A stretch of 64,000 bases of DNA from Caldovatus aquaticus (GTDB taxonomy: Bacteria; Pseudomonadota; Alphaproteobacteria; Acetobacterales; Acetobacteraceae): NCBI RefSeq assembly GCF_019458025.1, contig NZ_JAHZUY010000002.1, positions 124,001-188,000 of the forward strand, given 5' to 3'. A program made the translations under genes and the position numbers. The notes under the pieces are model-generated. The model was not told the origin of the DNA. It made no database searches and worked only from the letters and a program-made list of their open reading frames with translations. Within the stretch, counting starts at the first letter, position 1, and every line of letters begins with the position of its first letter. Shown piece after piece: positions 9,724 through 55,263 of this stretch.

Positions 9724-10452
9724 ATGACGATCACCGTCGCGCCGGTGCCGTGCCTTCAGGACAATTACATCTGGCTCCTCCGCGGCGCGCGCGGCGAGGT
9801 GGCGCTCTGCGACCCCGGCGAGGCCGGGCCGGCGATCGCCGCGGTGGAGGAGGCTGGGGGGCGGCTCGACCTGATCCTCCTCACCCATCATCACGGCGAC
9901 CACGTCGCCGGGGTGGCGGCGGTGAAGCAGCGCTTCCCGGACGCGCGGGTGGTCGGGAACGGGGCGGACGCCCATCGCCTGCCGCCGCTCGACCTCGCCG
10001 TCTCGCCGGGGGACACGGTGGGCTTCGGCGGGTCGGCGGCCGCGGTCATCGCCTGTCCCGGCCACACGCGGGGCGGGATCTCCTACCACTTCGCCGCCGG
10101 GGCGCTGGTGCTGTGCGGCGACACGCTGTTCTCGCTCGGCTGCGGCCGGCTGATCGAGGGCACGGCGGAGGAGATGTTCCGCAGCCTGCGCGCGCTCGCC
10201 GCCCTGCCGCCGGAGACACTGGTCTGCTGCGGCCACGAATACACCGAGAGCAACGCCCGCTTCGCCCTGACCGTCGAGCCCGACAACCCGGCGCTGCGCG
10301 CCCGCGCCGAGGAGGCGCGCGCGCAGCGCGCCGCCGGCCGGCCCACCGTGCCGACGACGATCGCCCAGGAGCTCGCCACCAACCCCTTCCTGCGCGCCCC
10401 GGACGTGGCAAGCTTCGCGCGCCTCCGCGCGGCGAAGGACAATTTCCGCTAG
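9724..10452 (+). CDS. gloB: Hydroxyacylglutathione hydrolase (glyoxalase II)
   Basis: 242 residues. The enzyme hydrolyses S-lactoylglutathione to lactate and glutathione in methylglyoxal detoxification. The metallo-beta-lactamase fold is clear: the metal motif THHHGDH at about residues 57-63, a further metal-site His in CPGHTRGG, the Asp in CGDTLFSLGCGR, and GHEYTESNARF. The start ATG is preceded by AGGAGG. The C-terminal HAGH domain ends with AAKDNFR. Its stop codon TAG is the first triplet of repeat copy 1. A GST gene follows, which fits glutathione-linked detoxification. Confidence 0.95.
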   Translation: MTITVAPVPCLQDNYIWLLRGARGEVALCDPGEAGPAIAAVEEAGGRLDLILLTHHHGDHVAGVAAVKQRFPDARVVGNGADAHRLPPLDLAVSPGDTVGFGGSAAAVIACPGHTRGGISYHFAAGALVLCGDTLFSLGCGRLIEGTAEEMFRSLRALAALPPETLVCCGHEYTESNARFALTVEPDNPALRARAEEARAQRAAGRPTVPTTIAQELATNPFLRAPDVASFARLRAAKDNFR

Positions 10453-10548
10453 ATCGCGGACCGTCGGGAACGGCCGGGGGCGCGAATCCGCCCGGCCGGC
10501 ACCGGGCCGGAGCCGCTGCCGCGAGCCCGGCCGAGCGCAAGCGGCGCC
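10450..10548 (+). repeat. Dispersed intergenic repeat, copy 1
   Basis: One of four related ~100-base elements. It begins with the TAG stop of gloB, then reads ATCGCGGAC, a GGGAACGGCCGGGGGCGCGA block, and GCCGGAGCCGCTGCCGCG, and ends near AGCGGCGCC. The GGGAACGGCC block through GCGCGAA is identical over 21 bases with copy 4 (33045-33152), which lies 23 kb away behind a different gene. Internal inverted symmetry (ATCGCGG...GCGCGAATCCGC) suggests a folded RNA or DNA structure. Confidence 0.7.
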
Positions 10549-10600
10549 CCGCATCCCGCGGAGCCGCGCCGCCACGAACCGAGGAGGAGTGACCCGCCCG

Positions 10601-11324: not shown

Positions 11325-11939
11325 ATGAGCGACGCCGCCGCCTGGGACGCCCGCTACGCGGGCGAGGGGTTCCAGTTCGGCGAGGCGCCGAACCGCTACC
11401 TGGAGAGCCTCGCCCCCCGGCTGCGGCCGGGGATGCGCGCGCTCGCGGTGGGCGACGGCGAGGGGCGCAACGGCGTCTGGCTCGCCGCGCAGGGTCTGCG
11501 GGTGACCAGCCTCGACTGGTCCGCAGTCGGCCTTGCCAAGGCGCAGGCGCTCGCCGCGCGGCGCGGGGTGACGCTGGAGACGGTGGTGGCGGACGCGGCG
11601 CGCTGGGACTGGCCCGTCGCGGCCTACGACCTCATCGCCTGGATCTTCGTCCACCTTCCGCCCGCCGATCGCCATGCCGCGGCGCAGGGCGTGCTGCGTG
11701 CCCTCGCCCCCGGCGGGATGCTGGCGCTGGAATGCTTCACCCCGGCGCAGGAGGGCCGGCGGAGCGGGGGGCCGAAGGACGTCTCCCTGCTCTGGAGCCG
11801 GGCCATCGTGGAGGCGGAGTTCTGCGGCGCGCTGGAGATCGTCGAGCTGCTCGAGGGCACCGTGCTGCTCGACGAGGGGCCGCGCCACCAGGGGCATGCG
11901 GAGGTGGTGCGCACGCTGCTGCGCAGGCCCGCGCGGTAG
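11325..11939 (+). CDS. Class I SAM-dependent methyltransferase (TehB-like group)
   Basis: 204 residues beginning MSDAAAWDARYAGEGFQFG, the WDxRY...FGxxPN opening of a common small methyltransferase group related to TehB. Motif I is ALAVGDGEGRNGVWLA and motif II includes VTSLDWS. Relatives are annotated loosely as tellurite-resistance or thiol methyltransferases; the substrate is not determinable here. Its TAG stop is the first triplet of repeat copy 2. It follows the GST gene by 121 bases on the same strand. Confidence 0.85.
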   Translation: MSDAAAWDARYAGEGFQFGEAPNRYLESLAPRLRPGMRALAVGDGEGRNGVWLAAQGLRVTSLDWSAVGLAKAQALAARRGVTLETVVADAARWDWPVAAYDLIAWIFVHLPPADRHAAAQGVLRALAPGGMLALECFTPAQEGRRSGGPKDVSLLWSRAIVEAEFCGALEIVELLEGTVLLDEGPRHQGHAEVVRTLLRRPAR

Positions 11940-12045
11940 GGCGGATCGCGGACAGCCGGAAACGACCGGGAGAGCGAGCCCGCTCGACCGGGGACGAGCC
12001 GGAGCCGTGGCCGCGCGCACGGCCGAGCGGCAGGGCTCCGGCGCC
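11937..12045 (+). repeat. Dispersed intergenic repeat, copy 2
   Basis: It starts at the TAG stop of the methyltransferase gene and reads TAGGGCGGATCGCGGAC, then a GGAAACGACCGG block, GAGCCGGAGCCG, GCCGCGCGCACGGCCGAGCGG, and CTCCGGCGCC. It fills most of the space between this gene and the convergent EamA gene (stop at 12075). It is alignable with copies 1, 3 and 4 over its whole length but is the most diverged in the middle. Confidence 0.7.
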
Positions 12046-31587: not shown

Positions 31588-31778
31588 GGACGGATCCTCA
31601 CGGCGATGGTCGCTGCGCGTCCATCAACCCATGCCGCGGGTGCGGCCGCAAGCGGTCCGGCTTGTCCGCGGCCGGCAGCGCCCCGGTCCTTTGCCCGCGG
31701 AGCCGGTTCCCGCTCCCGGCCGCTTCCGGGCGGGAGCGATCTGCTCTAGAAGGCGCCACGAGAGGAGCTTGCCGCGCC

Positions 31779-33044: not shown

Positions 33045-33152
33045 GCCTGGAGCCGTCTCCGCCCGGCTGTGCGCGCGGCGACGGCTCCGGCGCGTTGTCC
33101 GCCGAGCGGCTTCGCGCCCCCGGCCGTTCCCAGCCGTCCGCGCTCCGCCCTA
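33045..33152 (-). repeat. Dispersed intergenic repeat, copy 4
   Basis: Read on the minus strand it begins with the TAG stop of the aldehyde dehydrogenase gene: TAGGGCGGAGCGCGGAC, then the same 21-base block as copy 1 (GGGAACGGCC through GCGCGAA), then CGCCGGAGCCGTCGCCGCG, and it ends near GACGGCTCC. It occupies most of the gap between two convergent genes. Being the only copy on the minus strand, it shows that the element follows the orientation of the gene it terminates. Confidence 0.7.
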
Positions 33153-54052: not shown

Positions 54053-55162
54053 ATGCCGCACCACCGGCTTAGTGCGGTTTCCGCCCGCGGGGGCGCCGGC
54101 GCGCGCCGCGACGCCGATCCCGGTTCGCCCCCGCCGCGAGCGGACGCGACGAGGGCGCCCGGGCACGCCTTCGCCCGCCGCGCGGCGCTGCGCGCCGCCC
54201 TCGGCGGCATCGCGGCGCTGCCCGCCGCGGCGGCAGGGAGCCAGTCGGCGGTGGCGCCGGAGTTCCCGCGCCAGCCGGTGCGCCTCGTCGTGCCCTTCGC
54301 CCCGGGCGGCGCGACGGACGTCGTCGCGCGCATCCTCGCGCCCGGGATGCAGCAGGCCTTCGGCGGCCGGCCGGTCGTGGTCGAGAACCGCGGCGGCGCC
54401 GGCGGGCTGATCGGCGCCGAGGCTGTCGCCACCGCGCCGCCCGACGGCCACACCGTCATCCTCCTCACCATCACCAACGCGGTGCTGATGGTGGGGCTGA
54501 TGCGCAACGCGCGCGTGGACCCGCGACGGGACTTCGAGCCCGTTTCCCTGGTGGCGACGCTGCCGATGGTGCTGACGGTCGGCAGGCACGTGCCGGCGCG
54601 GGACCTGCCGGAGCTGATCGCCCTCCTGCGGTCGCGCCCCGGGCGCCTGACCTACGGCTCCGCCGGTCCCGGCAGCATCAACCACCTCGGCGCGCACCTG
54701 CTGACCCTGCGCACGGGAACGCAGGCGGAGCACGTGCCCTACCGCGGCGCCGGCCCGGTCTTCGCGGACATGATCGCGGGCAACGTGGACATGCTGATCG
54801 AGGGCATCCCGTCGCAGGCGCCCCATGTGCGCAGCGGCCAGATCCGCGCCATCGCCGTGCTGGCACCGGAGCGCAGCCCGCTGCTGCCCGAGGTGCCGAC
54901 CGCCATCGAGCAGGGAATCGCCGGCTTCCAGATCATGAACTTCATGGGCGTCTACGCGCCTGCCGGCACGCCGCCCGCGGTGATCGCACGGCTCGAGCAG
55001 GCGGTGCGGAGCGCGGTGCGCGACGAGACCGTCGCGCAGCGCCTGCGGGATGCGGGAACCGAACCGGCCGGCTCCGCCGCGGCGGAGTTCCGGTCCTTCT
55101 GGCAGGCGCAGCTCGACCTGTGGCTGCCGGTCGTCGAGGCCTCGGGCATCCGGCTGGACTAG
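54053..55162 (+). CDS. Tripartite tricarboxylate (Bug/TctC-like) substrate-binding protein
   Basis: 369 residues from the ATG at 54053, which has GGGGGAG six bases upstream; an ATG two codons earlier is too close to that site. An unusually long polar N-terminal part of about 40 residues comes before the export signal FARRAALRAALGGIAALPAAA. The Bug features follow: QPVRLVVPFAPGGATDVVARIL, VVENRGGAGGLIGAEAVATA, VPYRGAGPVFADMIAGNVDM and FMGVYAPAGTP. The TAG stop is the start of repeat copy 3. A second Bug gene follows; the two are different proteins, not a recent copy. Confidence 0.9.
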   Translation: MPHHRLSAVSARGGAGARRDADPGSPPPRADATRAPGHAFARRAALRAALGGIAALPAAAAGSQSAVAPEFPRQPVRLVVPFAPGGATDVVARILAPGMQQAFGGRPVVVENRGGAGGLIGAEAVATAPPDGHTVILLTITNAVLMVGLMRNARVDPRRDFEPVSLVATLPMVLTVGRHVPARDLPELIALLRSRPGRLTYGSAGPGSINHLGAHLLTLRTGTQAEHVPYRGAGPVFADMIAGNVDMLIEGIPSQAPHVRSGQIRAIAVLAPERSPLLPEVPTAIEQGIAGFQIMNFMGVYAPAGTPPAVIARLEQAVRSAVRDETVAQRLRDAGTEPAGSAAAEFRSFWQAQLDLWLPVVEASGIRLD

Positions 55163-55263
55163 GGGGATCGCGGACGGAAACGGCCGGAAGCGCGGATCCG
55201 CCCGGCAGACGACGAGCCGGAGCCGCTGCAGCGGGCACGGCGAGCGGAAACGGCGCTGGCGCC
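55160..55263 (+). repeat. Dispersed intergenic repeat, copy 3
   Basis: Starting at the TAG stop of the Bug gene, it reads TAGGGGGATCGCGGACG, GAAACGGCCGG, AGCGCGGATCCGCCCGGC, GAGCCGGAGCCGCTGC, and ends near CGGCGCTGGCGCC. Compared with copies 2 and 4 it lacks about four bases after GCGGAC. GGATCGCG and CGCGGATCC are opposed and could pair. Confidence 0.7.

Follow-up and report, generated by a model that had tools for sequence, protein, structure and literature searches.

We studied a short repeat that occurs at the ends of genes in Caldovatus, both in a 64,000-nucleotide stretch of DNA (the window) and in the whole assembly to which it belongs (G000; 3.99 Mb in 142 contigs). The element is very probably an IS630-type MITE that enters TA, mostly in CTAG, and accumulates at stop codons. 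The repeat family, its termini, the TA duplication, the empty sites, the decay pattern and the IS630 elements of relatives with the same termini were all observed directly.

Four copies in the window had been listed in an earlier note on this DNA, as alignable elements each beginning at the TAG stop of a different gene, and all four were recovered on the same strands and at the same sites. Copy 1 (10450..10550, plus strand, E 1e-10) has its left end at the TAG stop of a gloB-like gene and presents a 5-nt internal deletion right after CTAGA. Copy 2 (11937..12041, plus strand, E 4e-15) starts at the GTAG stop of a methyltransferase gene and its right end has decayed to CTCCGG; copy 3 (33047..33152, minus strand, E 3e-17) starts at the CTAG stop of an aldehyde dehydrogenase gene and has CTCCAG at its right end; and copy 4 (55160..55259, plus strand, E 6e-11) starts at the CTAG stop of a Bug/TctC gene. 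Pfam matches concurred with the names given to the genes (Lactamase_B and HAGH_C for the gloB-like gene, Methyltransf_25, Aldedh and TctC/Bug). The mean column identity of the four copies was 81%, and the 21-base run reported as common to those at 10450 and 33045 corresponded to GGGAACGGCCGGGGGCGCGAA. The coincidence with stops in four cases out of four was correct for the listed copies, but a fifth, degenerate copy (31649..31749, minus strand, left end TCTAGAGCAGATCGC, E 1e-5) is located away from any gene stop, so that the proportion was four of five in the window and 53 of 90 genome-wide (see below).

The proposed search of the genome was done with a covariance model whose alignment comprised 22 rows (21 distinct copies). 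It revealed at least 149 copies in G000 (E <= 0.01, among the 150 candidates scored), five of them in the window. The four listed copies scored E = 3e-17 to 1e-10 and three of them were in the training set of the model; the genome-wide matches are the stronger evidence, because most were absent from model building. Families were also found in relatives: Caldovatus sediminis (G001), the nearest relative examined and mostly 85-97% identical to G000 across the syntenic part of the window, and Crenalkalicoccus had dozens of copies. Dense families were present only in G000, G001 and G023 (40 relatives examined), whereas more loosely related elements occurred in 24 of the 249 genomes examined in the bacterial family, and exact-pattern matches in Siccirubricoccus, Roseicella, Roseomonas, Paracraurococcus and Crenalkalicoccus. 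Some families moved recently, as shown by identical copies at unrelated sites (eight in G075, four of the six read in G063 and four of the five read in G080), all bordered by CTAG on both sides. In G080 the 14-base end pattern had 118 exact matches, against one for the control. Other CTAG-bounded hairpin elements (CTAGAGCGGGATCGG..., CTAGAGCGTGATCGG..., TGTCCTGCCCGCGAAG... and others) were seen at three G080 loci (L262, L263 and L272), inserted at each other's CTAG and forming mosaics. Neighbouring copies of the element, in tandem or inverted, were also seen in G000 (L090, L087, L086, L016/L047 and L013/L031), the second copy being usually more diverged.

Each element is organized as TA-GAGC...GCTC-TA, with a length of ~107 bp (97-108 bp), two hairpins and no coding capacity; it is thus short, non-coding, multi-copy and has fixed ends, as is characteristic of MITEs. 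The two hairpins, each flanked by GAGC/GCTC, were predicted in every subfamily. Compensatory changes were found in 22 of 39 pairs (18 sequences from many genomes), a result obtained in none of 500 shuffles and approached by no slid register, and they back the fold that had been suspected from internal inverted symmetry. The RNAalifold consensus on the G000 copies alone showed little covariation because these copies are too similar; the covariation test succeeded only across subfamilies. These substitutions indicate that the pairing of the hairpins matters, whether in DNA or in RNA. Rfam gave no gathering-level match in the window, and on six element loci it matched only tRNAs plus one sub-threshold chance match.

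The distance of the copies to gene stops was tabulated, as had been proposed, for the 90 copies located away from contig edges; gene ends were called by a simple codon-usage score trained on the window, not by a full gene finder. An element end coincided with a TAG stop in 53 copies (left end in 45, right end in 12, both in 4). A gene stop was located at exactly offset 0 in 41 copies and within -2 to +5 in 48, whereas the remaining ~133 positions contained 12 stops in total, i.e., 0.09 per position (~0.1 expected per exact position). At least one end was a stop in 16 of 18 copies in C. sediminis and in 12 of 14 in Crenalkalicoccus. In G080, whose family is recent, the coincidence was much lower (about 5 of 27), indicating that nesting at stops is not a strict insertion rule; scarcity of the target, purging of insertions at other places, or the two together make it more frequent. 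The base before TAG was C in 30 of 41 element stops against 16 of 59 other TAG stops (p = 6e-6), and in a set of 85 copies placed relative to gene pairs, 40 were located between convergent genes and 5 between divergent ones. In four loci (L046, L086, L110 and L121) the copy lies between convergent genes with each end being the stop of one of them, which looks as if the insertion had split a shared CTAG stop overlap.

Orientation relative to the gene was strongly biased: copies with one end at a stop used the left end in 41 cases and the right end in 8 in G000 (p = 2e-6), and the relatives sampled leaned the same way. Coding does not explain this bias, since either orientation rebuilds TAG, and target choice alone does not predict it. 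Together with the enrichment of copies at 3' gene ends and the compensatory changes that conserve both hairpins, the bias would suit a functional 3'-UTR module, in which the paired hairpins, placed downstream of the stop, would contribute to termination or mRNA stability and sense copies at stops would be retained for that purpose. This reading seems to us rather improbable. The bias was absent in copies away from stops between codirectional genes (7 vs 9); many of the copies are missing from C. sediminis although the genes themselves are conserved; the genes' strand showed no U-tract terminator at copies 1 and 2, the only site given by the intrinsic-terminator search being on the minus strand of copy 1; Rfam had no match; and termini bound by a transposase, or single-stranded intermediates, would also be expected to covary between subfamilies. 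The bias may be due to asymmetric ends and target flanks, or to a role of hairpin 1 beside the stop. As to the option of termination or mRNA stability raised in the earlier note, the two copies thus gave no terminator on the genes' strand, yet some role may underlie the orientation bias. If so, and we give it only a small chance, the element would be more than a passenger: a sense copy at a stop would act as a portable 3'-UTR that protects the mRNA or ends it, and scores of genes in this genus would owe their uniform 3' ends to a transposon. The trace of such a portable 3'-UTR would then be, with no better prospects, the 41:8 bias found only in copies at stops.

Orthologues free of the element, a comparison also proposed earlier, revealed what the insertions had found at their targets. 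The syntenic genes of C. sediminis lacked copies 1, 2 and 3 of the window. The empty site of copy 3 was precise: CTCTAG|GCCGGG in C. sediminis corresponded to CTCTAG-[element]-CAG|GCCGGG in G000, which implies that the stop codon was the insertion target and was not imported whole; TAG is rebuilt because the duplicated TA is followed by the first base of the element, G. The orthologous site of copy 2 in C. sediminis was also free of the element, with a GTAG stop. Copy 1 was absent from the sister genomes G001 and G002 and the equivalent codon was TGA in both, so that the change of stop either preceded the insertion or accompanied it. This last site, together with TGA in the sister gene at 9 of the 22 occupied TAG stops for which sister sequence was available, would agree with an element that imports its own stop codon, rewriting or shortening gene ends. 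We consider such an import unlikely: the sister had TAG in the other 13 cases, its protein ended at the same position or at most two codons away, and stops also turn over where there is no element (TGA in 3 and TAG in 13 of 16 unoccupied TAG stops; difference from the occupied ones not significant, p = 0.18). TAG thus pre-existed at most, though not demonstrably at all, of these sites. The claim that the repeat supplies the stop codon holds only in that the element adds the G after the duplicated TA; as the empty sites indicate, the TAG was usually there before. In the G080 family, empty sites in sister genomes gave few clean cases.

The target is scarce in this genome: trinucleotides lead one to expect about 60 CTAGs in the 64 kb of the window, where there were 11, and in the loci sampled 15 of the 45 CTAGs that lie outside elements were gene stops. 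Young copies had CTAG at both ends in nearly all cases. TA was intact at both ends in 48 copies and the outer bases were unequal in 14 of them (e.g., ATAG...CTAG or CTAG...CTAA), which means that the duplication comprises TA only and that the element proper spans from G to C or G. These 48 copies and the empty sites conform to the TA target duplication of IS630-type MITEs. Three copies (L089, L097 and L037) were located at GA or CA and not at TA (left junction TGA|GAGCGG or TCA|GAGCGG), which suggests occasional insertion at these dinucleotides.

The CTAG borders of young copies would also be expected of a MITE of an IS5/IS870-type element duplicating the four bases CTAG, as MITEPsy1 does, and IS5-type transposases do sit exactly at the CTAG of several G000 copies. 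A four-base duplication is, however, excluded in the copies that combine a CTAG end with an ATAG, GTAG, TTAG or CTAA end, and the adjoining IS5-type ends (GAGTCCAGGAC and GGTTCAGGAC) are unlike those of the element, whereas IS630 ends are alike; this origin is accordingly very unlikely. The IS5-type sequences beside the copies were also rejected as mobilisers, since their ends differ and they merely use the same CTAG. These insertion sequences (ends GAGTCCAGGAC, GGTTCAGGAC and others) were located exactly at CTAG, beside or near the copies, in L001 (1-130), L025 (end), L033 (1-124), L039 (1-124) and L109 (end), at the ends of contigs C4, C59, C96, C81 and C94, where they break the assembly. 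In L025 and L039 the IS5-type transposase frame appears to use that CTAG as its stop, as described for IS870.

The two ends of the element have had different fates. A right end serving as a stop retained CTAG in 11 of 12 copies, against 3 of 66 when unused as a stop, being then mostly CCGG, CCAG or CTGG; copies with only the right end at a stop showed the mirror-image decay at the left end. This pattern fits duplicated target bases that are free of selection in a CTAG-avoiding genome.

The connection with IS630 came from the termini. Two intact IS630-family (Tc1/mariner) elements from related Acetobacteraceae (L308 and L309) were bounded on either side by TA-GAGCGGTTTCA, or by a variant differing in one base, and had a TA duplication, and in two other loci (L302 and L299) the open reading frame of an IS630-family (DDE_3) transposase ran straight into ...TGAAACCGCTCTAG; the repeat shares its terminal inverted repeats with these elements, as a MITE does with its mobiliser family. 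With the TA-G start, common by construction, counted in all cases, the right end of the MITE matched IS630 ends in up to 20 of 22 bases in G080 and in 17 of 22 in G063. The G000 ends matched in only 14-15 of 22, the TA-G start included, so that the link between the G000 element and IS630 rests on the homologous subfamilies. In G075 and in G236 a MITE family coexists with an IS630 that has a CTAGAGCGGTTTCA end. The G000 assembly yielded no intact IS630 whose ends match the element, which accords with the older, diverged copies of that genome; its one DDE_3 fragment (L181, at a contig end) has a terminus unlike that of the element.

A REP/RAYT-type element, GTAG/CTAG-tagged and moved by a Y1 (TnpA_REP) transposase, would likewise appear as small extragenic palindromes in many copies with a 5' tetranucleotide, but this origin is hardly credible and was rejected, since Y1_Tnp (PF01797) was unmatched in the G000 assembly by a search that was positive in the E. 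coli and Caulobacter controls, and since the unit has two hairpins, two termini, a TA duplication and IS630-type ends. Hence the mobile palindrome with a preference for gene ends proposed in the earlier note was borne out in substance, and its likeness to REP elements was not.

For the IS630-type MITE we propose the following course. The element would be mobilised in trans by a putative IS630-family transposase; the one formerly present in G000 would have belonged to an IS630 subgroup with the same termini. Insertion takes place at TA, mostly inside CTAG, and duplicates TA. At a TAG stop the protein is kept intact, because the target TA and the G of the element form TAG again, whereas purging would remove most of the insertions that hit genes at other places; the elements would therefore pile up exactly at stop codons. 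The end that serves as the stop would be kept by selection while the other decays. This is a clean case in which the target preference of a transposon coincides with the spot where an insertion harms a compact genome least, namely a rare tetranucleotide, often preserved as a stop codon, that is rebuilt upon insertion, and it accounts for the puzzling pattern of a repeat at every stop codon. Note, for annotators, that TAG ends and 3' repeats are here insertion scars. Effects on mRNA 3' ends are also directly testable, through close species in which the same genes differ in carrying the element or not.

The known system that comes closest in size, number of copies, insertion at TA and IS630-like termini is RUP (repeat unit of pneumococcus), 107 bp long and mobilised by IS630-Spn1 (PMC2229807, review of Oggioni and Claverys 1999). 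According to the part of that review dealing with it, RUP is, like our element, non-coding, ~107 bp long and present in about a hundred copies or more, with IS630-like termini and TA insertion. Sequence and host differ, and the same part describes RUP as intergenic or in IS genes and mentions neither a stop-codon habit nor a double hairpin. MITEPsy1 of Pseudomonas syringae pv. phaseolicola (100 nt; targets CTAG or YTAA) is also a small MITE with CTAG as a main target and is experimentally mobile, but it is reported to have a 4-nt duplication and IS5-like (ISPsy2) ends, unlike the TA duplication and IS630-like ends found here (PMC3189936). IS630 itself prefers TA within 5'-CTAG-3' and duplicates TA, according to the title of Tenzen and Ohtsubo 1991 (in PMC2170065); target preference and duplication are thus alike, although IS630 is a full insertion sequence and the Caldovatus element a MITE. 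A CTAG target tied to a stop codon is reported for IS870 in the title of Fournier et al. 1993 (in PMC6471742); as worded there, the target gives a stop to the insertion sequence's own gene, whereas in Caldovatus the stop of the host gene is the site and is preserved. REP/BIME, RAYT elements and GTAG-tagged palindromes are likewise palindromic, extragenic, high in copy number and close to gene ends (PMC3733652, PMC2817692), but the Caldovatus element is a two-ended unit with a TA duplication in a genome whose assembly has no Y1 transposase. No report of this family or of stop-codon-nesting MITEs was found in the literature searched, to which most subscription journals did not belong. We regard the element as a new IS630-type MITE family whose distinctive property is that it lands on the stop codons of host genes: its kind is known from RUP and MITEPsy1, and IS870 uses CTAG too, while host stops as a harmless niche are less familiar.
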